Shown here piece after piece: positions 37,024 through 49,023 of a stretch of 64,000 nt of DNA (positions are counted from its first letter, which is position 1; every line of letters starts with the position of its first letter). Under the pieces are notes generated by a model that saw nothing but the letters and a program-made list of their open reading frames with translations, made no database searches and had not been told where the DNA came from. The stretch is taken from NCBI RefSeq assembly GCF_005937185.1, contig NZ_VCNI01000003.1, positions 124,001 through 188,000 on the forward strand, given 5' to 3'. Origin of the DNA: Flagellimonas algicola (GTDB lineage Bacteria; Bacteroidota; Bacteroidia; Flavobacteriales; Flavobacteriaceae). A program made the position numbers and the translations under genes.

Positions 37024-38085
37024 CTAGACTATGCTTTGCACCACCTCTTTTTTGGCTTCTTTTTTGGAGCCGTCAAATCCTTGCACTCCGCCAACGGTGG
37101 TATATTTCATTACAAATCGTTTATCTGGATTGATAATTTGATACGCATACTGACACATTACAGCCGCTTCATGGAATCCGGATAAAATCAATTTCAACTT
37201 ACCTTCATAGGTGTTTACGTCGCCAATAGCAAAAACACCCGGAATATTGGTCTGGTAATCCTTGGCATTGTTTACTTTGATGGCGTTCTTCTGAATTTCC
37301 AAGCCCCAGTTGCCGATGGGGCCCAATTTTGGTGACAAACCAAACAATGGAATAAAGTAGTCTGTTTCCACATAGGTCTGACCCTTGGCTTCATCATTAT
37401 GTTTGATGACCACCGCTTTTAGCTCATTTTCTCCATGGATTTCCTTCACTTCCGCCTCTGTATACAATTGGATTTTTCCCAATTTGGCCAATTCAGAAGC
37501 TTTTTCAACAGAATCCAAGGCTCCTCTAAACTCATTTCTTCGGTGTACTAAGGCCACTTCCGAAGCTATGTCTGCCAAATAGATGGCCCAATCCAAGGCA
37601 GAATCACCTCCACCTGCGATCACTACTTTTTTATCCCGATATACTTCAGGGTCCTTGATCATATAGACCACACCTTTGTCCTCGTATTTCGCAATATTGG
37701 AAATTAAAGGTTTTCTGGGCTCAAAAGAGCCTAATCCACCAGCGATTACAACAACTGGAGCATGGTGTTGGGTTCCTTTGTTTGTGGTAACAATGAAGGA
37801 ACCATCTTCTTGCTTCTCCAAGGTTTCGGCACGTTCTCCCAAAGTAAACCCTGGCTCAAAAGGCTTTATTTGCTCCATCAGCCTATCTACTAAATCTCCT
37901 GCCAAAATCTCTGGATAAGCAGGGATATCATAAATCGGTTTTTTGGGATAAATCTCTGAACATTGGCCCCCTGGTTGCGGAAGTGCGTCAATCAAATGGG
38001 TCTTAAGCTTTAAAAGTCCAGCCTCAAACACGGTAAATAAACCGGTTGGTCCAGCTCCAATAATAAGTATATCTGTCTTTATCAT
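37024..38085 (-). CDS. Ferredoxin-NADP reductase, thioredoxin-reductase-like type
   Basis: 353-residue FAD/NAD(P) oxidoreductase. FAD motif DILIIGAGPTGLFTVFEAG at the N-terminus, NAD(P) motif VVIAGGGDSALDWAIYLAD at about 155, and GVFAIGDVNTYEGK near 290. The Cys-x-x-Cys of true thioredoxin reductases is missing (QCSEIYPKKPIYDI region), which places it with the TrxR-like ferredoxin-NADP reductases. As last gene of the sulfite-reduction operon it probably reduces the ferredoxin used by the sulfite reductase. It overlaps cobA by four bases. Confidence 0.92.
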   Translation of the reverse strand: MIKTDILIIGAGPTGLFTVFEAGLLKLKTHLIDALPQPGGQCSEIYPKKPIYDIPAYPEILAGDLVDRLMEQIKPFEPGFTLGERAETLEKQEDGSFIVTTNKGTQHHAPVVVIAGGLGSFEPRKPLISNIAKYEDKGVVYMIKDPEVYRDKKVVIAGGGDSALDWAIYLADIASEVALVHRRNEFRGALDSVEKASELAKLGKIQLYTEAEVKEIHGENELKAVVIKHNDEAKGQTYVETDYFIPLFGLSPKLGPIGNWGLEIQKNAIKVNNAKDYQTNIPGVFAIGDVNTYEGKLKLILSGFHEAAVMCQYAYQIINPDKRFVMKYTTVGGVQGFDGSKKEAKKEVVQSIV

Positions 38086-38864
38086 CTTATTCCTTTTTCT
38101 ACTAACTCCAATTCTTTGTTTCTGTTTTCTTTTTGAATTTCCAATAATCGCTGTCGATGGTTCACCACCTCGCCAATAATTATAATGGCAGGATTGGATA
38201 ACTGCTGCTCCTTTGCCTTGTACTCAATGGAAGCAACAGTTCCAATTCCTATTTTTTCGTTCTCTTTGGTTCCATTTTGAATAATGGCCACCGGAACTTC
38301 CGATTTTCCTTCTTTTTTGAACAACTCCACTATCTGCGACAACTTTGACATTCCCATCAAAATCAGAACCGTTGCGTTTGATTTCGCCGCCAATTCCACA
38401 TCCTTGGAAAGTTGGTGTTCTTTGGTAGTACCTGTAATCACCCAGAAACTCTCGGTTGCCCCTCTCTTGGTGACCGGAATATTCTGTGATGCCGGGACGG
38501 AAACTGCGGATGAAATCCCTGGCACAACGGCTACTTCAACACCAAATTGGGCAGCGTATTCCATTTCCTCGGCACCGCGGCCAAAAACGAACGGATCCCC
38601 ACCTTTAAGACGCACCACATGACCTTTGGTCTGTGCCCTTTGAACAATCAATTCATTGATTTGGTTCTGCTGGTAGGCATAGCATCCCTTTCGTTTTCCT
38701 ACGAAAATCTTCTCTGCATTTGGCGCATATTCCAAGAGTTGGGCATCCACCAAGGCGTCATAAAGAACCACATCGGCAGCTTCCAAGGCTTTGATTCCCT
38801 TGAGCGTTATCAAATCCACATCCCCGGGACCTGCTCCAACTACTGTCAATTTTCCGTTATACAT
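38082..38864 (-). CDS. cobA: Uroporphyrinogen-III C-methyltransferase
   Basis: 260-residue SAM-dependent methylase that makes precorrin-2, the precursor of sirohaem. Motifs: VVGAGPGDVDLITLKG at residue 6, VRLKGGDPFVFGRGAEE near 83, GISSAVSVPASQNIPVTKRG near 110, TVLILMGMSK. It is the single-domain type, without the CysG oxidase/ferrochelatase half. Start ATG 38864 overlaps the sulfite reductase stop by eight bases, so it supplies the cofactor of its upstream neighbour. Confidence 0.95.
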   Translation of the reverse strand: MYNGKLTVVGAGPGDVDLITLKGIKALEAADVVLYDALVDAQLLEYAPNAEKIFVGKRKGCYAYQQNQINELIVQRAQTKGHVVRLKGGDPFVFGRGAEEMEYAAQFGVEVAVVPGISSAVSVPASQNIPVTKRGATESFWVITGTTKEHQLSKDVELAAKSNATVLILMGMSKLSQIVELFKKEGKSEVPVAIIQNGTKENEKIGIGTVASIEYKAKEQQLSNPAIIIIGEVVNHRQRLLEIQKENRNKELELVEKGIR

Positions 38865-40947
38865 GTGCCAGTTCCAATTTTCTATAGGCTTCCAATTTTT
38901 CCAAAACTGATTTCGCATCAATCAGAAAACTCTCTGCAAATGCTTGGCTTGGTTTGTTCTTGTTCAACTGAAGTGCCAAATCCGAAAAACTTCCTGCAAG
39001 GCCAATTTTATCGGTTTCCACATAGAGTCTATCGAAATCCTTGATAATCCCTGAATGGGTATTCACTTTTACTTTTTCCGAAGTCAACAGGGCCTTGGCC
39101 GAGTTCACTATGGATTGATAGGAGTAATAAATACTTGCGGCCCATTTTTCCTCATTCAGCGCTTCTTGGGCACTGTCAATTTTTTCTTGACTTTCAAAGA
39201 ACAGGGTAGCTACAAGATCCACGATGACCCCGGCACACTCCCCAATACCTATCTCCTTTTTATATTTTTCCTCGGTTCCCCAATCAATAAAGTCTTCTGG
39301 GGTAAGGTTTTCAATATCCGCCAAAGGTTTTAGGAAATCATAGAAATAATGTTCTCCTTTTTCCCAATAGTAATCAGCAAATGAGGCGCCGTTTCCGTTA
39401 CTGTTGAAATCGTCCAAAATCAACCGCAATGCTTGAGGTCCCCTTTTACTTGGAACCTTAATCACTTTGTCCGCAAATCTGGCTTTTCCATTTCCAAAGT
39501 TTCCACCTCCCAATAACACTTGAAGTGCCGGCGCTACCAATTTGTCTTTGGTACGAATGGACATTCCTTGAAAACCTATATTGGCCATATTGTGTTGCCC
39601 ACAGGCGTTCATACAACCGCTAATCTTGATGACCACATCAGGGTTGCTGATATACTGCGGATATTCTGCTTTGATTACCCGCTCCAATTCCTCAGCTATA
39701 CCTGTGCTACTTGAAATTCCAAGATTACAGGTATCCGTACCAGGGCAAGCCGTGATGTCCAGGGCCTTATTATACCCAGCCTCTACGAATCCCAATTTTT
39801 CCAATTCGCTATAAAAGAATGGCACCAACGCTTCCTTCACATACGGAATTAATATATTTTGACGCAGTGAAAGTCGAATTTCCCCTGCCGCATAGTCTTG
39901 AACCAATCGAGCCAGTTTTCTGGCTTTATCGGTATAGAAATCACCCAATAACACTTTTATTCCAATGGCAACATAGCCCTTCTGTTTTTGCTGAACCAAG
40001 TTGGTGGATTTCCAATTATTGAAAGCTTCAGCATCCTCAATTTGCACTTGAGGTACCTCCACATTGGCCACTACAGGCCTTGGATAAGTTTCAAAGTCAA
40101 TAGGGTAAGTTTGATGGGGGATAGCCAATTGCTCTTCCTCCAAAAGTGCCTTGAATCCATCAAGCCCAATGTCTTTCAGCAAGAATTTCAATCTAGCTTT
40201 GGCCCTACTCTTTCTTTCTCCATGCCGGTCAAAAATGCGGATAACTCCTTCCATGAGGGGAATGATTTTATCCGTAGGTAAGAAGCTATATAATTCATCA
40301 GCATGACGCGGTTGAGATCCAAGACCACCGGCCAACATCACCTTAAATCCTCTTTCCCCATTTTTGATTTTGGCTATAAAGCCCAAATCGTGCATGTATG
40401 ACAGTCCGGTATCGGCATCACTGGCAGAGAAGGAAACTTTGAACTTACGTCCCATTTCCTGACCGATAGGATTTCTCAAAAAATATTGGAATACCGCATG
40501 GGCATAAGGGGAAACATCAAAAGGTTCATCGACATCTATTCCAGCGGTTTCACTGGCGGTAACGTTCCGAACTGTATTACCACAAGCTTCGCGCAGGGTA
40601 ACGTCGTCCCGCTCCAATTCTGCCCATAGTTCAGGGGTACGTTCCAAGTCTACATAATGGATTTGTATATCCTGTCTCGTGGTAATGTGCAATCTCCCTC
40701 TGGAATATTCATCAGAAACATCACAAATACGAAGTAGTTGCTTGGAGGACACCTTGCCATAAGGCAACTTGATCCTAACCATCTGCACACCTTGCTGACG
40801 CTGCCCATAGACTCCACGAGCTAAACGGAGGCTTCTGAATTTTTCCTCGTCCACCTCGCCACCTTTGAACTGTCGAATTTTTCTTTCCAATTCGATGATG
40901 TCCTTTTCTACTACAGGATTTTCTATTTCTGTTCTAAAGCTTTGCAT
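38857..40947 (-). CDS. sir: Sirohaem-dependent sulfite reductase with C-terminal HEPN domain
   Basis: 696 residues. About 1-560 is a nitrite/sulfite reductase with two half-repeats; the [4Fe-4S]/sirohaem ligands are ITACPGTDTCNLG (C-x5-C) near 405 and KISGCMNACGQH (C-x3-C) near 445. Residues about 590-696 form a HEPN-like helical domain (ALNEEKWAASIYYSYQSIVNSAKALL, NTHSGIIKDFDRLY) without the Rx4-6H RNase motif. It reduces sulfite to sulfide, probably with ferredoxin. Nitrite reduction is possible in this family, but the flanking cysH and cobA favour sulfite. The tail's role is unknown. Confidence 0.93.
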   Translation of the reverse strand: MQSFRTEIENPVVEKDIIELERKIRQFKGGEVDEEKFRSLRLARGVYGQRQQGVQMVRIKLPYGKVSSKQLLRICDVSDEYSRGRLHITTRQDIQIHYVDLERTPELWAELERDDVTLREACGNTVRNVTASETAGIDVDEPFDVSPYAHAVFQYFLRNPIGQEMGRKFKVSFSASDADTGLSYMHDLGFIAKIKNGERGFKVMLAGGLGSQPRHADELYSFLPTDKIIPLMEGVIRIFDRHGERKSRAKARLKFLLKDIGLDGFKALLEEEQLAIPHQTYPIDFETYPRPVVANVEVPQVQIEDAEAFNNWKSTNLVQQKQKGYVAIGIKVLLGDFYTDKARKLARLVQDYAAGEIRLSLRQNILIPYVKEALVPFFYSELEKLGFVEAGYNKALDITACPGTDTCNLGISSSTGIAEELERVIKAEYPQYISNPDVVIKISGCMNACGQHNMANIGFQGMSIRTKDKLVAPALQVLLGGGNFGNGKARFADKVIKVPSKRGPQALRLILDDFNSNGNGASFADYYWEKGEHYFYDFLKPLADIENLTPEDFIDWGTEEKYKKEIGIGECAGVIVDLVATLFFESQEKIDSAQEALNEEKWAASIYYSYQSIVNSAKALLTSEKVKVNTHSGIIKDFDRLYVETDKIGLAGSFSDLALQLNKNKPSQAFAESFLIDAKSVLEKLEAYRKLELAHV

Positions 40948-40954
40948 AATCGAA

Positions 40955-41578
40955 TTATTGTAAATGAATTCCGCACTCCCTTGTTTCCAAGGCTTTTACA
41001 GGATCAAAATAGGTGCTGTTTTTTGGTAAATCGTAGGCTTCCAAATAGCTGTCCAGGTCATCATCTGTCCAATAGTAAAAGGGACTCACTTTCAAAACAC
41101 CTTCTTTTGAATAGCTCAAAATATCTTTCTCACTTCTGAGTGCAGTCTGGCGAATCCGAATATTGGTGAACCAAATGTCGGGCTGGTGATCTTCCAACGC
41201 TCTGCGAAAAGGTTCAAGTTTTACGATTTCCGAAAACTCCAAATGTTCAGGTTGATCCGACGCAGGAAAACCCAATCGATGCTCTATAAATGCCCGTGTC
41301 TCCCTAGGCACATACGTATTTAGTTTGAGTTTGAACCGATCAGTCAATATGCCCGCATGTTCATATGTTTCGGGAAGATTGTATCCAGTATCACACCACA
41401 CCACATCGATTTCGGGATCGATTCGTTGAAAAGTGCTCAACAAAACGGCAGAATACTTTCCAAAACTTGTCGTCACAATTCGCTTATTGGACAATCGCAT
41501 CGCCCATTCAATAATTTCTTCAGGTGGTATGCCCCTAAACTGTTTGTTATAATATTCGGTGTCGATATTTAATTTCAT
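40955..41578 (-). CDS. cysH: Phosphoadenylyl/adenylyl-sulfate reductase (CysH-like, copy 1)
   Basis: 207 residues. The PP-loop is RIVTTSFGKYSAVLLSTF at about 33-50, followed by VVWCDTGYNLPETYEHA and the catalytic C-terminal ETRECGIH. There are no extra Cys-Cys pairs of the iron-sulfur APS reductases, which points to the PAPS type. It makes sulfite for the sulfite reductase that starts seven bases later. ATP sulfurylase genes are not in the window. The promoter carries a pair of 17-bp palindromes. Confidence 0.9.
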   Translation of the reverse strand: MKLNIDTEYYNKQFRGIPPEEIIEWAMRLSNKRIVTTSFGKYSAVLLSTFQRIDPEIDVVWCDTGYNLPETYEHAGILTDRFKLKLNTYVPRETRAFIEHRLGFPASDQPEHLEFSEIVKLEPFRRALEDHQPDIWFTNIRIRQTALRSEKDILSYSKEGVLKVSPFYYWTDDDLDSYLEAYDLPKNSTYFDPVKALETRECGIHLQ

Positions 41579-41583
41579 ATTAC

Positions 41584-41679
41584 CCTATGGATTTAATAGG
41601 AATATCAAAGATAGTCCTTCAGACATAACAAATGGTTAAAAACTTTATAAATTTACATTTACCCTATAGTTTTTATAGA
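41584..41679 (-). promoter_or_regulatory. cysH/sulfite-reductase promoter with two CCTAT-N7-ATAGG operators
   Basis: Proximal palindrome CCTATGGATTTAATAGG (41584-41600) and distal CCTATAGTTTTTATAGA (41663-41679) are 79 bp apart start to start. Between them on the minus strand is an exact TATCTTTG -7 box (41606-41613), five bases from the proximal site. The proximal site thus lies at the transcription start, about six bases before the ATG. Spacing is the same at 42770-42866. Confidence 0.75.
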
Positions 41680-41751
41680 TTTAATGAAAATCGAGGCTAA
41701 TTTTTATGGATTTTCCACCTACATCCTATGTAAACAGCATATTTTTTGACC

Positions 41752-41844
41752 TCAAGAAAGTAAATAGATCAAGTTGGTGTTTCAAATTATTTCCAATGCA
41801 GCGTCCCTGACTTACGGCTTTAACCCGTGCATGGAACGCTTGTT
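41752..41844 (-). pseudogene. Relic of an Rrf2 regulator gene, last 31 codons
   Basis: Between cysH2 and the cysH1 promoter the minus strand reads NKRSMHGLKP, stop, VRDAALEII, stop, NTNLIYLLS, stop. It aligns without gaps to the C-terminus of the intact Rrf2 protein at 42938 (NKCSVHKLMIQVRDSALEVY then RNTTLADLIS), with 16 of 30 residues identical. The distance from its terminal stop to the distal operator (72 bases) equals that at the intact gene (71). Two internal stops and loss of a Cys show it is dead. Confidence 0.85.
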
Positions 41845-41854
41845 AAATTAGAGT

Positions 41855-42478
41855 TTAGGTATGTAACCCGCACTCCCGGTTTTCCAACACTTTGGTGGGG
41901 TCAAAATACTTGTGTTCGTTGGGGAGTTTGTACTCTGCCAAATAGAAATCCAACTGGGTATCGCTCCAATAGTAAAACGGGCTTACTTTTAGCACACCGT
42001 CACTACTTAAACTTAACACATCCAACGAGTCTCTATGGGCAGTTTGTCCCTTTCTCAGGTTGGTGAACCAAACATCCGGTTTATGCTCTTTCATCGCCCT
42101 TCTAAATGGTTCGAGTTTCACTTGTTCGGTGAAAATAACATGCATGGGATCATCAATCTGCGGGATTCCCATAATGGCATCCCTATGGGCCGAGGTTTGC
42201 AGTGGGACATAATGCTTAATATTCAAACCCAAACGTGAAATCAGTTCTTCAGCATGTTTATAGGTCTGGGGAGTATTATAGCCCGTATCGCACCAAATAA
42301 CAGGTATATCGGTGTTCACATCGGAAACCGCATGCAAAATAGTTACCTCATAAGGCCGAAAATTGGTGGTAACCACAGGATTTTTTCCATTCTTGATGGC
42401 CCAAGAAATTATTTCCTGAGGAGGAATACCTCTAAACTGCCTGTTTAAACTCTCAATGTCTTCTGTTGTGAATGCCAT
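41855..42478 (-). CDS. cysH: CysH-like protein with altered PP-loop (copy 2)
   Basis: 207 residues, clearly homologous over its full length to the cysH at 40955 (IPVIWCDTGYNTPQTYKHAEEL, VKLEPFRRAMKEHKPDVWFTN, GVLKVSPFYYWSD, ENRECGLH). The PP-loop is changed: VVTTNFRPYEVTIL in place of VTTSFGKYSAVLL, so the Ser-Phe-Gly and second Ser are lost although the catalytic C-terminal Cys stays. It may accept another substrate or act as a partner subunit. It follows a DUF2061 gene by 12 bases. Start ATG 42478. Confidence 0.82.
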   Translation of the reverse strand: MAFTTEDIESLNRQFRGIPPQEIISWAIKNGKNPVVTTNFRPYEVTILHAVSDVNTDIPVIWCDTGYNTPQTYKHAEELISRLGLNIKHYVPLQTSAHRDAIMGIPQIDDPMHVIFTEQVKLEPFRRAMKEHKPDVWFTNLRKGQTAHRDSLDVLSLSSDGVLKVSPFYYWSDTQLDFYLAEYKLPNEHKYFDPTKVLENRECGLHT

Positions 42479-42490
42479 AACCAAATATTT

Positions 42491-42754
42491 TTATTTGCCC
42501 CAGGAAATTGTATTCCAAATTCTCTCATGAAAAAAGTACAACACCATTTTGGTGACCAACTCTACCAAACCAATTGAAAAAGCCAAGCTCAACGTTCCTG
42601 TAATAATCCATGAAATGATAATGGTATCAAGAGTTCCCACAATCCTCCAACTGATGGATTTAGCGATGCTGCGCTTAGGGCTTTCAGAATTTTTATCCTT
42701 TGCGAAGGAATCTTTTTGGCCTTCTTTGTTTAGTACTAACTGATCTGCTAACAT
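42491..42754 (-). CDS. DUF2061 membrane protein
   Basis: 87 residues: a charged N-terminus (about 1-30), then KSISWRIVGTLDTIIISWIITGTLSLAFSIGLVELVTKMVLYFFHERIW, which is the DUF2061 signature with two membrane helices. The function is not known; in other bacteria it is often near sulfate-assimilation genes. It is first in the operon with the second cysH and directly behind the duplicated operator pair. Confidence 0.85.
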   Translation of the reverse strand: MLADQLVLNKEGQKDSFAKDKNSESPKRSIAKSISWRIVGTLDTIIISWIITGTLSLAFSIGLVELVTKMVLYFFHERIWNTISWGK

Positions 42755-42769
42755 TTGTTCTTCTAATTT

Positions 42770-42866
42770 CCTATGGACTTAATAGGTTAATCAAAAGTAG
42801 TACTCTTTTTTAATACTAATCGTTAATTCGAGTATAAAATTGCTATTACCCTATAGTTTTTATAGG
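42770..42866 (-). promoter_or_regulatory. DUF2061-cysH2 promoter with two CCTAT-N7-ATAGG operators
   Basis: Proximal CCTATGGACTTAATAGG (42770-42786), -7 box TACTTTTG (42792-42799) and distal CCTATAGTTTTTATAGG (42850-42866). The sites are 80 bp apart and the gap between -7 box and proximal site is five bases, exactly as at 41584-41679. Flanking bases also align. The nearest regulator is the Rrf2 gene whose 3' end lies 71 bases upstream. Confidence 0.75.
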
Positions 42867-42937
42867 TTTTGCCAAAATCCGCCTGATTTTTTAGGGATTT
42901 ACCACTCTTTTGCCAAAGAATTAGTAGGATTTTAGTG

Positions 42938-43348
42938 CTAAGAAATTAAATCCGCCAAAGTGGTATTTCGGTATACTTCCAGGGCGCTGTCCCTGACCTG
43001 AATCATTAGTTTGTGGACAGAACACTTATTTTCATCGGGGCAATCATCACATTTCTCATAGAAATTGAGGCTTACACAAGGAACCATGGCAATAGGCCCT
43101 TCCAATACCCGGATAACAGAAGTCATCAGAATTTCTTTTGGTTCCCTAATCAAATAGTAACCTCCACCCTTTCCTTTTTTGGAACCCAAAAATCCGTTGC
43201 GTCGAAGTGTAAGAAGAATACTTTCCAGAAACTTTTGGGAAATGTTCTCATGTTTTGCGATTTCGGCTATTTGAACAGGTTCCTTGCAATCTATGGAAGC
43301 TAGATAAGTAAGTGCTTTTAGGCCATATTTTGTCTTCTTGGAGAGCAT
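42938..43348 (-). CDS. Rrf2-family transcriptional regulator with Cys cluster
   Basis: 136 residues. Winged helix at the N-terminus (MLSKKTKYGLKALTYLASI, EIAKHENISQKFLESILLTLRRNGFLGSKKGKGGGYYL), and a C-terminal loop with four cysteines, PCVSLNFYEKCDDCPDENKCSVH, like the cluster-binding segment of IscR. It is likely a redox- or sulfur-responsive regulator of the two adjacent cysH promoters. Start ATG 43348 is chosen because Rrf2 proteins begin just before this helix. No operator copy is seen before its own gene. Confidence 0.9.
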   Translation of the reverse strand: MLSKKTKYGLKALTYLASIDCKEPVQIAEIAKHENISQKFLESILLTLRRNGFLGSKKGKGGGYYLIREPKEILMTSVIRVLEGPIAMVPCVSLNFYEKCDDCPDENKCSVHKLMIQVRDSALEVYRNTTLADLIS

Positions 43349-45575: not shown

Positions 45576-45639
45576 TGACTTCGACTTCGCTCAGCCACCA
45601 AAATCAAATTTTCAAGGTAGCTGAGCGTAGCCGAAGCTA
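45576..45639. repeat. Inverted pair of REP-like repeats
   Basis: TTCGACTTCGCTCAG (45580-45594) and CTGAGCGTAGCCGAA (45621-45635) are near-perfect inverted copies with 26 bases between; the outer bases GGTGG/CCACC-like also pair. The TAG stop of the metX-thrA gene is read from this element. Confidence 0.75.
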
Positions 45640-48600
45640 TATCTTTTCTGCTATTCTAAGTATGTCACCAAATACGCCTCTGGCCGTTACCGCTGAACCA
45701 GCACCAGCACCCTGAATCACTAAAGGATTCTCACCATAGGACTCCGTATAAATCTCTATAATTGAATCTGAACCACTCACCTGTCCCAAAGCACTTTCTT
45801 TGGGAACGGAAACCAGCTTTACGTCCAAAATGCCTTTGTCCTTTTGCAAGTCACCATGCAAATCCCCAATATATCTAAGCACATGCCCATCTTCTTGTTG
45901 TCCTTTAATGGATTCATAGATATTATCCATCTTTTCAATTTGGGAAATGAATGCATCAAAATTCAAGGGTCGTAGTTCCTCTGGAATAAGGTTTTCAACC
46001 GAGATATCTGAAAATTCATTTTGAAGATCCAACTCCCTTGCCAGTATCAATAATTTTCTTCCCACATCGTTGCCAGATAAATCTTCTCTGGGATCAGGTT
46101 CTGTAAATCCCTTGGCCATTGCCTCTTTCACTATGGATGAAAACGGAACTTTCTTTTCAGAAAAAGTATTAAAAATATAACTCAACGAGCCTGAAAAAAC
46201 ACCCTTGATTCTAGTGATATTCTCCCCGGAAAGATGGAGTAATTTAATGGTATCTATCAAAGGAAGTCCAGCCCCTACATTGGTTTCATAGAGGTATTGC
46301 TTTTGATTCTTTTCCAAGTTTCTTCGTACGGATTTATAGTAATCAAAACCTAGGGTGTTGGCAATTTTATTGGAGGATACCAAGTCAAAACCACCCTCAA
46401 TCAATGCATCATAGTTGGAAACAAAGGTCTCGCTAGCTGTATTGTCTACAGCAATCAAGTTCTCCAAATGATGCTCCTTGGCATAATCTATAATGTCTTC
46501 GACCGTGTAAGGTTCACCTTTGGAATCCAAGTCCTCCCTCCATTGAGTTGAAATACCATTGCTGTTCAACCAAGCTTTTTTGGAATTGGAGACTGAAAAA
46601 ATCCTTAAATCCAGACCTTTTCGGTTTTCTATGCTTTTTTGGGAATCCAAAATCTGGTCAATCAAGGTTGCGCCCACATTGCCGTGCCCAAAAATGGCAA
46701 GATTTACCTTTTTGGCTATACCAAAAATCTGCCCGTGAACCACATTGATGGCCTTGTGCAAGTCAGATTTGTTGACCACCAAGCTCACATTTTTACCGGT
46801 GACCGTATTGTTAAAAAGCAAGGGTACAACCTGATTCTTAACCAAAGCATTAAAAGGTTTATGGAAGGTGCTTAAATCCATTCCAACAATCGAGATTACA
46901 GAAACATCGTGAAGTACCGTAATCTCGTTCACATCCTGTGCGGAATAGTCGGTTTCAAACTCCTGATCCAGTACTTTTTTGGCCTTTTGGGCTTTTTTGG
47001 CATCAACCACCAATCCAATTCCTCTTTCTGAAGAACCTTGGGATATAATTCCAACATTAATATTGTTTTGTCCCAAGGTCTTAAATATTCGGGCATCAAT
47101 CCCCACTTTTCCCAACAACCCTCTACCTGATAAGTTAACCAAGGCCACATCCTCCAAAACCGATAGGGATTTAATCCCGCCGTTATCCGTTTTTGGACCA
47201 ATCAAGGTTCCATTACTTTCGGCATTGAAGGTGTTTTTTATTCGTAGAGGAATATTCTTTTCAATTAGGGGAATTATGGTCTTTGCATGCAGGATATTGG
47301 CGCCAAAATTGGCCAATTCATTGGCTTCCGCATACGAAATGGAATCAATCAGCTTGGCTTCGGAAACCAGGTCGGGGTTAGCGGTGAAAATTCCGTCGAC
47401 ATGGGTATAATTTACCAGAACCTGTGCATCCAAAAAGTTGGCCAAAAGTGCAGCGGAATAATTACTCCCATTCCGTCCCAAGGTGGTGGTCTCTCCTTTA
47501 TTGGTGGACGCAATAAATCCAGTAGTAATGGCTACCGCCCCCGCTTCCAACTCCCTAAAACAACGTATCACATTTTCTTTGGAAACAGCTTCATCCACCT
47601 CGGCATTATTAAAGGTATCGTCCGTTTTGATTAGGGATCGCGAATCGATAAATTTAGCCTTTACGCCACGTTCCAAGAGCAAAGCTGTGACCACCTTCGC
47701 CGATATCAGTTCACCGTAAGCCAGTAGTTCATCTTTGGTTTTTAAACTATAGTCACCTGTAAGGGAAACCCCTTTTAACAATTTTTCTATGGTTTGGAAT
47801 TCCTCTACCAAATCCACTTGTGGCAAGGCCGCTTTTTGGTAATCGGAAAACTCATCAAACGAAGTTGCAAAATCCTCTCCCCGGGCAGCCTTTTTGAGCA
47901 GGACCTCTAGTTGGTCCGTTGCCTTGCCCCTTGCGGACAGAACTACTCCAAAATGCTCTTTTTCTTGGGCTCGCTTAGTAATTATGGACAAAACACTTTC
48001 AAGTCCATCCCCATTGGCCAACGACTTACCTCCGAATTTTAGGATTTTGATACGCTCCTTAACGGTTTGCTCATGAAAAATTGGTTTTAACAGGTTTTCC
48101 AGCTGTTGGAACTCAATTAAAAAAGCATCATGCCCATGAAGTGATTGCACTTCACCATAGGTGACATTGGCGTTGGCCTGGGCCAAATGCCTAAAAGTTT
48201 CCTTATTTTCTTCGGCCGTAAAAAACAAATCCGAATTAACCCCAATAATATGAATCCTGGTTTCACTGCCCTGCAATTCTTGAAAGGCTTTATCACCATC
48301 CCTAGTTATGTCAATGGTTTTCAGGAGTTGGTTCATCAATTTGTAGGCCGAGAGTTGAAACCGCTCTTGAAGCTTCTTGCCATGGTGCATTAGCCAACTT
48401 TCCACATTGAACACCTGTAGTTCTTCGTTCGTACTTCGCTTGAACCGTTCCTTAAAAGATTCCGGAGTCCTATAGCACAGCATGGCGTGCATACGCGCAT
48501 CGTGCACAGGTTGCTTGGAATTGATCAAAAATTGCTCCTGAATCTGACAGTTGGCAATCAACCAATCCGTGGATTTCCAATCCGATGCAACAGGAATTAG

Positions 48601-49023
48601 ATGTTTGGTGATTTTTGGATTTAATGCTGCCATTTCCCAAGCAACCCCTCCCCCCAAAGATCCACCAATGATAGCAAAAAGTCGTTCCACATTAAGTTCC
48701 TCCAGACCTTGCAAAAAGATTTTGGCAATGTCCCCGGCCACAAAATCCTTATAGTTATCGATTACAAAACCATCAAATCCGTTTCCAGGTATATTGAAAG
48801 CCAATATGGTATAGGTTTCCGTGTCAATGCACTTGTCCTTCCCAATAATGTCGGACCACCAACCATTTTCTCCAGTAACATTGGAGTTACCAGTTAACGC
48901 ATGATTGACCAAAACTATAGGTGCAGTATGCAGTTCCTGGCCAAAAACCTGGTAGGACAATTGCAAGTCCTGTGAAATTCCACCTAAGGTCTTGTATTCC
49001 TTTATGTCTAATTTATGGAGCAT
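45637..49023 (-). CDS. thrA: Trifunctional homoserine O-acyltransferase / aspartate kinase / homoserine dehydrogenase
   Basis: 1128 residues in three parts. About 1-320: MetX-type alpha/beta hydrolase (VNHALTGNSNV, nucleophile in IIGGSLGGGVAWE, Asp in GVNSDLFF, His in LHGHDAFLIE). About 330-770: aspartate kinase (IKILKFGGKSLANGDG, TLGRNGSNYSAALLA) with ACT repeats. About 785-1128: homoserine dehydrogenase (LAIFGHGNVGATLIDQ, SSNKIANTL, ETNVGAGLPLIDTI, DPREDLSGNDVGRKLLILAREL). It takes aspartate to homoserine and activates it for sulfhydrylation. It is 35 bases behind metY, in the SAM-I operon. Confidence 0.92.
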   Translation of the reverse strand: MLHKLDIKEYKTLGGISQDLQLSYQVFGQELHTAPIVLVNHALTGNSNVTGENGWWSDIIGKDKCIDTETYTILAFNIPGNGFDGFVIDNYKDFVAGDIAKIFLQGLEELNVERLFAIIGGSLGGGVAWEMAALNPKITKHLIPVASDWKSTDWLIANCQIQEQFLINSKQPVHDARMHAMLCYRTPESFKERFKRSTNEELQVFNVESWLMHHGKKLQERFQLSAYKLMNQLLKTIDITRDGDKAFQELQGSETRIHIIGVNSDLFFTAEENKETFRHLAQANANVTYGEVQSLHGHDAFLIEFQQLENLLKPIFHEQTVKERIKILKFGGKSLANGDGLESVLSIITKRAQEKEHFGVVLSARGKATDQLEVLLKKAARGEDFATSFDEFSDYQKAALPQVDLVEEFQTIEKLLKGVSLTGDYSLKTKDELLAYGELISAKVVTALLLERGVKAKFIDSRSLIKTDDTFNNAEVDEAVSKENVIRCFRELEAGAVAITTGFIASTNKGETTTLGRNGSNYSAALLANFLDAQVLVNYTHVDGIFTANPDLVSEAKLIDSISYAEANELANFGANILHAKTIIPLIEKNIPLRIKNTFNAESNGTLIGPKTDNGGIKSLSVLEDVALVNLSGRGLLGKVGIDARIFKTLGQNNINVGIISQGSSERGIGLVVDAKKAQKAKKVLDQEFETDYSAQDVNEITVLHDVSVISIVGMDLSTFHKPFNALVKNQVVPLLFNNTVTGKNVSLVVNKSDLHKAINVVHGQIFGIAKKVNLAIFGHGNVGATLIDQILDSQKSIENRKGLDLRIFSVSNSKKAWLNSNGISTQWREDLDSKGEPYTVEDIIDYAKEHHLENLIAVDNTASETFVSNYDALIEGGFDLVSSNKIANTLGFDYYKSVRRNLEKNQKQYLYETNVGAGLPLIDTIKLLHLSGENITRIKGVFSGSLSYIFNTFSEKKVPFSSIVKEAMAKGFTEPDPREDLSGNDVGRKLLILARELDLQNEFSDISVENLIPEELRPLNFDAFISQIEKMDNIYESIKGQQEDGHVLRYIGDLHGDLQKDKGILDVKLVSVPKESALGQVSGSDSIIEIYTESYGENPLVIQGAGAGSAVTARGVFGDILRIAEKI

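Follow-up and report, generated by a model that had tools for sequence, protein, structure and literature searches.

A decayed rrf2 3' end in a Flagellimonas sulfate-assimilation locus as the probable scar left by recombination with an imported cysH cassette

A decayed rrf2 3' end lying between two cysH genes of Flagellimonas algicola (genome G000) probably marks the recombination by which a cysH cassette was imported, and is less likely to be the trace of a tandem duplication. It lies in a window of 64,000 nucleotides, the whole stretch of DNA that was analysed. We consider it likely that the cysD-cysN pair of an operon of form A (defined below) gave way to a fragment carrying an rrf2 tail, a promoter and cysH1, and that the relic is the trimmed edge of this fragment. 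A pseudogene scrap is usually read as decay after duplication; here it is better explained as the scar of an allele exchange between species, in which one can identify the cassette that was exchanged as well as the genes that were lost and the flanks. The main interest of the scrap is the pathway swap that it exposes, the hybrid locus being probably a half-finished one. The locus also draws attention to a family of cysH genes, spread over several Flavobacteriaceae genera, which has no Fe-S cysteines and probably reduces APS, and the repeated swaps between two forms of the sulfate-assimilation operon within one genus make the evolution of APS versus PAPS reduction testable in close relatives.

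The relic, its gene row and its promoter

The features of the locus are collected in Table 1. Pfam searches along the gene row matched Rrf2, DUF2061, two PAPS_reduct domains, nitrite/sulfite reductase with HEPN, tetrapyrrole methylase and pyridine nucleotide oxidoreductase. The HEPN domain (PF05168) forms the C-terminus of the sulfite reductase-like protein, scoring 27.8 bits against a cut-off of 22. Elsewhere in the window, one frame of 1128 residues (45637-49023, minus) was judged by eye to combine a portion resembling homoserine acetyltransferase with one resembling aspartokinase/homoserine dehydrogenase.

Table 1 Coordinates of the features of the rrf2-cysH locus in the window
Feature	Position	Strand	Remarks
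Ferredoxin-NADP reductase-like gene (fnr)	37024..38085	minus	same gene row
SUMT-like methylase (sumt)	38082..38921	minus	same gene row
Sulfite reductase-like gene (sir)	38857..40947	minus	right flank; clusters with A-type neighbours over its first 1400 bases
cysH1	40955..41578	minus	B-type reductase, P-loop SFGKYS, without Fe-S cysteine pairs; probable PAPS reductase; imported in the favoured reading
Second promoter P' before cysH1	41579..41751	minus	two candidate operators, ~41663-41679 and ~41584-41600; G000 and G302 copies 88% identical
Relic of rrf2 3' end	41752..41844	minus	30 codons with two internal stops, then the final stop; edge of the import in the favoured reading
cysH2	41855..42484	minus	A-type reductase, P-loop NFRPYE, without Fe-S cysteine pairs; probable APS reductase; resident in the favoured reading
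DUF2061 membrane protein	42491..42754	minus	part of the putative resident A-type operon
Resident promoter region	42755..42937	minus	two candidate operators, ~42850-42866 and ~42770-42786
Intact rrf2 regulator gene	42938..43348	minus	start set at the conserved MLSKKTKYG; open frame extends to 43402

Translated on the minus strand from 41844 to 41752, the relic reads NKRSMHGLKP*VRDAALEII*NTNLIYLLS*. It aligned without gaps over 30 residues with the C-terminus of the intact Rrf2 (NKCSVHKLMIQVRDSALEVYRNTTLADLIS), with 16 identical residues and two internal stops, and its final stop falls where the intact rrf2 stop falls. The BLOSUM62 score of this match was 63. The 276-bp gap was shuffled 2000 times with its dinucleotides preserved and each shuffle was scored in six frames; the mean was 28.2 and the maximum 51, so that none reached the observed score. 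As a natural control, 184 other stretches of the same locus in relatives were scored in the three forward frames, with gaps below 30 bases dropped and the cysH2-cysD gap taken as the 250 bases that follow cysH2; rrf2 scored at most 33 in them, and no scrap resembling the relic exceeded that value. These results confirmed that the stretch is a real decayed Rrf2 3' end whose similarity is above chance, as the first-pass annotation had described it, and the comparison with shuffled sequence which it had proposed came out in its favour.

The same gap was read in the second genome with both cysH genes, G302, which was taken as Muricauda myxillae 2012CJ39-3 from the same gene order in L189. It holds a more decayed relic, in which 68 of 99 aligned bases match the relic of G000 (69%). 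In DNA this relic scored 50 against rrf2 tails, the maximum of 200 shuffles being 36, and at the protein level the match to rrf2 is gone (score 24, derived from the mean of two gaps). The drift of the relic between the two genomes, at 69% identity, far exceeds that of P', at 88%. The DUF2061 gene of G302 (L123), lying between rrf2 and cysH2, is truncated and out of frame, and its cysH2 is intact.

The promoters behind the intact rrf2 and behind the relic also align, with a DNA score of 71 against a maximum of 28 in 500 shuffles, and the homology of relic, promoter and cysH to the intact unit holds as first claimed. The candidate operators in Table 1 follow the pattern CTAT-N7-ATAG. The genome as a whole has seven strict matches to CTAT-N7-ATAGGNTA, and the two promoters account for four of these; a reversed-pattern control gave six. 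The distance from relic to operator equals that of the intact gene to within one base, which the first-pass annotation had taken as a mark of duplication. The measured agreement stands. From the rrf2 stop to the first operator-like site, the median distance was 67 bases in A-type loci (range 60-147, 53 of 53 loci) and 70 in B-type loci (range 56-302, a site being present in 13 of 14). Because the same geometry is found across the genus, the spacing is no sign of a local duplication.

Two forms of the locus and two types of cysH

For the census of the genus, 71 genomes were searched with cysH1 and the locus stretches were then read. The locus takes two forms. Form A, metB-rrf2-DUF2061-cysH2-cysD-cysN-sir, was found in 53 genomes, and form B, metB-rrf2-cysH1-sir-sumt-fnr, in 14. 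Both cysH genes were present in two genomes, the hybrids G000 and G302, and no cysH match was obtained in the remaining two (in G044 the contig breaks off behind rrf2, and G030 is 71% complete). The operon includes cysN in 53/53 A and 0/14 B genomes. Operon cysDN is absent from both hybrids, which are thus the only genomes with cysH2 in the genus to lack operon cysN. The gap between rrf2 and cysH1 is 408 bases long in G016 and G036 (L078, L097), with a small membrane-like frame, and 163-179 bases in the other 12 B genomes.

The forms were also followed outside the genus. Among 80 named loci, including some genomes already in the genus count, 73 had cysH1 only, six cysH2 only and one both (L189, which is G302). 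The loci with cysH1 only came from Croceivirga, Winogradskyella, Formosa, Tamlana, Mangrovimonas and others, and DUF2061 precedes cysH1 in many Winogradskyella, as it precedes a cysH1-type gene in G143, also outside the genus. A survey of 199 family genomes, one per genus, gave a cysH match in 125 and two cysH genes in two, G000 and G240, the copies in the latter being ~150 kb apart. Twelve A-like loci were seen outside the genus. With a cysD query sequence that begins at an internal methionine, cysD was found after cysH2 in nine of them, and one is cut by the contig end. In the other two, G289 (L056) and G194 (L062), which belong to two other genera, cysH2 is followed by sir with no cysD between, so the loss of cysDN need not mean import.

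A tree of 101 cysH sequences, which takes in the family loci whose sequence was read and not all 125 matching family genomes, separated a cysH1-type clade (n = 33, support 0.991) from a cysH2-type clade (n = 68, support 0.979), each spanning several Flavobacteriaceae genera; here and below, tree supports are FastTree values. On this tree cysH1 and cysH2 are placed as old ALTERNATIVES, in clades that predate the genus. The P-loop is SFG[K/V/I]YS in 33/33 cysH1-type and NFRPYE in 67/68 cysH2-type sequences; the one remaining cysH2-type sequence carries SFGPYA. Fe-S cysteine pairs are absent from both types, since all 101 sequences have two or three cysteines in total (two in 64 and three in four of the 68 cysH2-type sequences).

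PAPS reductases are marked by an SFG P-loop and a C-terminal ECGxH motif that holds the active-site cysteine. The cysH1 of the window has both an SFGKYS P-loop and a C-terminal RECGIH. It aligns with the E. coli PAPS reductase CysH (1SUR) over 174 residues, the SFG P-loop being present in both; cysH2 is alignable with CysH too, but it has no SFG. Unlike the E. coli enzyme, cysH1 falls under the curated NCBIfam cut-off for PAPS reductases (120.9 of 154 bits), which cysH2 also missed (116.8 of 154). Nor did cysH2 match an Fe-S APS reductase (TIGR02055), having two cysteines only and scoring 45.0 of 235.3 bits.

These distributions bear on the conclusion of the first-pass annotation that a whole rrf2-promoter-cysH unit was anciently duplicated in place, after which one regulator was reduced by decay to its final 93 bases. 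Tails, promoters and cysH genes are indeed homologous and stand in tandem. Yet the split between cysH1 and cysH2 came before the genus, and elsewhere the two genes are single alternatives at the same place. Divergence of the copies within the lineage that carries them is contradicted by the two separate multi-genus clades. The absence of operon cysN in the hybrids alone speaks against the duplication as well, as does the genus-wide spacing of relic and operator. An intermediate with two adjacent intact units was sought with cysH in the 71 genus genomes and the 199 family genomes, with rrf2 in 60 of the 71, and among the annotated genes of the 80 named loci, and none was found. Second rrf2 copies were seen in G010, G043 and G053 among the 60 genomes; they are located elsewhere and are 36-45% identical, and those of G010 (L121) and G043 (L122), at 44%, have no query gene adjoining in the stretches read.

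The distribution of the two forms was further compared with a ribosomal-operon tree of 39 of the 71 genus genomes (14,599 columns); of the 40 genomes taken for it, G002 was excluded because its stretch is short. The two forms lie scattered on this tree, with 10 parsimony changes on 39 tips against a shuffled mean of 11.6; 146 of 1000 shuffles gave 10 changes or fewer, and in this count G044, whose form was not read, was scored as A. Such scatter is what might be seen if both units were ancestral in the family and one or the other had been lost in most lineages. This account requires many parallel losses, however, and no tandem pair was seen outside G000 and G302: two cysH genes occur in 2/71 genus genomes, in 2/199 family genomes, with the G240 copies far apart, and in 1/80 named loci, which is G302. 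It also leaves the low divergence of cysH1, given below, unexplained, and we regard it as highly improbable.

Origin of the hybrid locus

On the ribosomal tree, the sampled genomes that stand nearest to G000 and G302 (G032, G026 and G055) are of form A. In both hybrids, metB, cysH2 and sir, the last over its first 1400 bases, fell in A-only clades with these three genomes, joined by A-type G053 in the metB clade and by A-type G301 in the sir clade, with supports across the clades from 0.25 to 0.99. Form A was taken as the probable resident because metB, cysH2, sir and the clade itself are all A-type. The cysH1 of the hybrids groups instead with B-type G028 (0.886) and with Croceivirga MAGs (0.933), the closest sequence outside the pair being 76% identical in DNA. 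In the rrf2 tree G000 and G302 are paired with a support of 0.72 only. On the ribosomal tree G302 joins A-type G032 and not G000, so that the hybrid can only be explained with a transfer from lineage to lineage or with a reversal.

Divergence between the two hybrids also sets cysH1 apart from its neighbours. The synonymous divergence (pS) was 0.43 for cysH1 and 0.68-0.77 for metB, rrf2, cysH2, sir, sumt and fnr (0.71 for the six), and this contrast was matched by none of 5000 permutations. In the adjoining 35-codon windows the values were 0.77 and 0.88 where cysH2 ends, and 0.62 and 0.88 where sir begins. Values along the row are uneven: one of five cysH1 windows reaches 0.73, and low values of 0.37-0.45 also occur in two windows of sumt and one of fnr. 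As a control, the 46 of 91 B pairs with a sir pS of 0.60-0.78 were examined; cysH1 minus sir averaged +0.05 with a minimum of -0.10, against -0.27 in the hybrids. A close B pair outside this range, G016/G036, had 0.02 for cysH1 and 0.24 for sir. The cysH1 tract thus probably entered the G000 and G302 lineages, or passed between them, after their split. Between the hybrids, cysH2 has an amino-acid-changing divergence (pN) of 0.066, similar to the values of 0.059 and 0.071 found when A genomes are compared, and since the gene is intact in both hybrids this suggests that it is still used. Low cysH1 divergence beside more diverged flanks speaks against a duplication in place, and on phylogeny, distribution and this contrast we rejected tandem duplication as very unlikely.

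The import that we favour would have run as follows. The resident would be form A, with the order rrf2-promoter-DUF2061-cysH2-cysD-cysN-sir, into which DNA from a relative of form B (rrf2-promoter-cysH1-sir) would have recombined. The left end of the import would lie inside the donor rrf2, ~93 bases before the end of the gene, and would have been joined just after cysH2; the right end would lie at or near the start of sir. The exchange would have removed cysD and cysN, leaving sulfate activation to the distant cysC-cysD-cysN module. The rrf2 scrap would never have been a whole gene here, and would have drifted since the exchange, when P' and cysH1 stayed conserved.

The same final gene order would result from an import in reverse, with form B as the resident, the relic as its own rrf2, and an A-type rrf2-DUF2061-cysH2 fragment entering upstream and truncating it. 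The tight spacing of cysH1 and sir in the hybrids, which is that of B-type G028 and G025, would agree with such an event. Against it, the nearest sampled members of the clade are A-type, metB and sir cluster with these, and the gene whose divergence between the hybrids stands out is cysH1 rather than cysH2; we therefore think it unlikely. For the right crossover of the favoured import, a window scan of sir gave no clear break, and the 5' 400 bases of sir fall in a clade (0.961) shared with B-type G305, G027 and G038. No microhomology was readable at the joint of cysH2 and relic, where the A-type sequence is too diverged.

The main weakness of import into an A-type operon is that the relic and its promoter are no more B-like than A-like. 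The relic alone scored a mean of 32.4 for A and 31.3 for B, which does not separate the two forms. The relic with P' of G000 scored best with A-type G035 (158), then with its own intact unit (150), the B maximum being 118; that of G302 scored best with the intact unit of G000 (139), with 113 as the B maximum and 111 for its own unit. The places taken by the intact unit of G000 would also fit the tandem duplication rejected above. Naming the donor from relic and P' was tried and rejected, as the best scores were with A-type units and none was a close match. The closest match of P' outside the hybrid pair is only 0.67, which leaves this donor test with little power. As relic and P' are not B-like, a B-type donor is suggested by cysH1, not by the relic, and among the sampled genomes no donor lineage was found, the closest cysH1 being that at 76%.

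The P' promoters of the two hybrids are 88% identical, against 69% for their resident promoters. Among the B promoters, the nearest neighbour was A-type in 3/14 (G002, G025, G028) and B-type in 11/14, and the promoter of B-type G025 is 95% identical with that of A-type G020. Judged from these sequences, promoter and cysH need not move together.

Mosaic operons, which Omelchenko et al. in 2003 reportedly traced to horizontal transfer and gene displacement in situ, are alike in that a foreign homologue takes its place inside a conserved operon. Both the discordant phylogeny of cysH1 relative to metB, cysH2 and sir and its lower, if uneven, pS are in keeping with such an import. The difference is that displacement here would be incomplete, with cysH2 kept beside the putatively imported cysH1 and the import edge visible as the rrf2 scrap.

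Regulation and the choice between APS and PAPS

The one intact Rrf2 is predicted to control both cysH genes, probably, because the same kind of operator pair stands before each. The regulator exceeded the Rrf2 superfamily cut-off (116.8 vs 73.3). It shares this family with CymR and IscR, but lies under the equivalog cut-offs of both (84.5 of 195 for CymR, 74.6 of 207.55 for IscR). At the distant cysCDN genes the strict operator pattern had no match; one 15-base match each was seen in L269 and L272, within coding sequence. An operator-like CCTAT-N7-ATAGG site or near-match also precedes sir in several genomes of both forms, among them G032, G026 and G055 of form A and G056 and G039 of form B. 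The gap before sir is too short for such an extra site in the hybrids, G028 and G025.

Full-length APS kinase (cysC), counted as a PF01583 match of at least 100 bits with weaker matches discounted, was found in 13/14 B genomes, 7/53 A genomes and 2/2 hybrids, and also in G044. The association of APS kinase with the form of the locus gave a Fisher p of 3.8e-8, uncorrected for kinship. The sole B genome without it, G027, is 88% complete. Five well-supported sister comparisons were made (G025/G020, G028/G004, G008/G034, G015/G053, and G013+G016+G036 vs G001+G005), and every B member had the kinase; the A members were without it in four, and in the fifth A-type G005 had it and G001 did not. In the 46 of 53 A genomes that have no full-length APS kinase, PF01507 matches were counted by eye. 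Among the matches listed, exactly two, CysD and CysH2, were present in 40 of the 46, which leaves CysH2 as their one sulfonucleotide reductase, and a third in the other six (G010, G020, G041, G049, G050, G298).

Because APS kinase is common in B and rare in A, cysH1 probably reduces PAPS and cysH2 probably reduces APS, the latter without an Fe-S cluster. According to PMC2275785, APR-B of the moss Physcomitrella is an Fe-S-free APS reductase, acting on APS without Fe-S cysteine pairs, and cysH2 is predicted to do likewise. It differs from APR-B in being bacterial and in its NFRPYE P-loop, and the only sign of its substrate is that most A genomes have no APS kinase. Among the literature matches listed, none dealt with the rrf2-cysH locus or with an APS reductase of Bacteroidota that has no cluster.

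More tentatively, at somewhat less than even chance in our estimate, the rrf2-cysH locus in Flagellimonas-like bacteria might act as a recombination-driven switch between an APS mode, with the cluster-free NFRPYE reductase, and a PAPS mode, with the distant cysQ-cysC-cysD-cysN genes. G000 and M. myxillae would then stand midway, with both reductases under one Rrf2.

The only cysN of the hybrids lies in this distant module, cysQ-DUF2061(x2)-cysC-cysD-cysN. In G000 the module adjoins two sulfotransferases and a UDP-sugar dehydrogenase, and in G302 it is followed by a weak sulfotransferase match (27%); no sulfotransferase was seen near it in the stretches of G056, G032 and G005. Two DUF2061 domains in a row stand between cysQ and cysC in the distant module (L269-L273, L146-L148).
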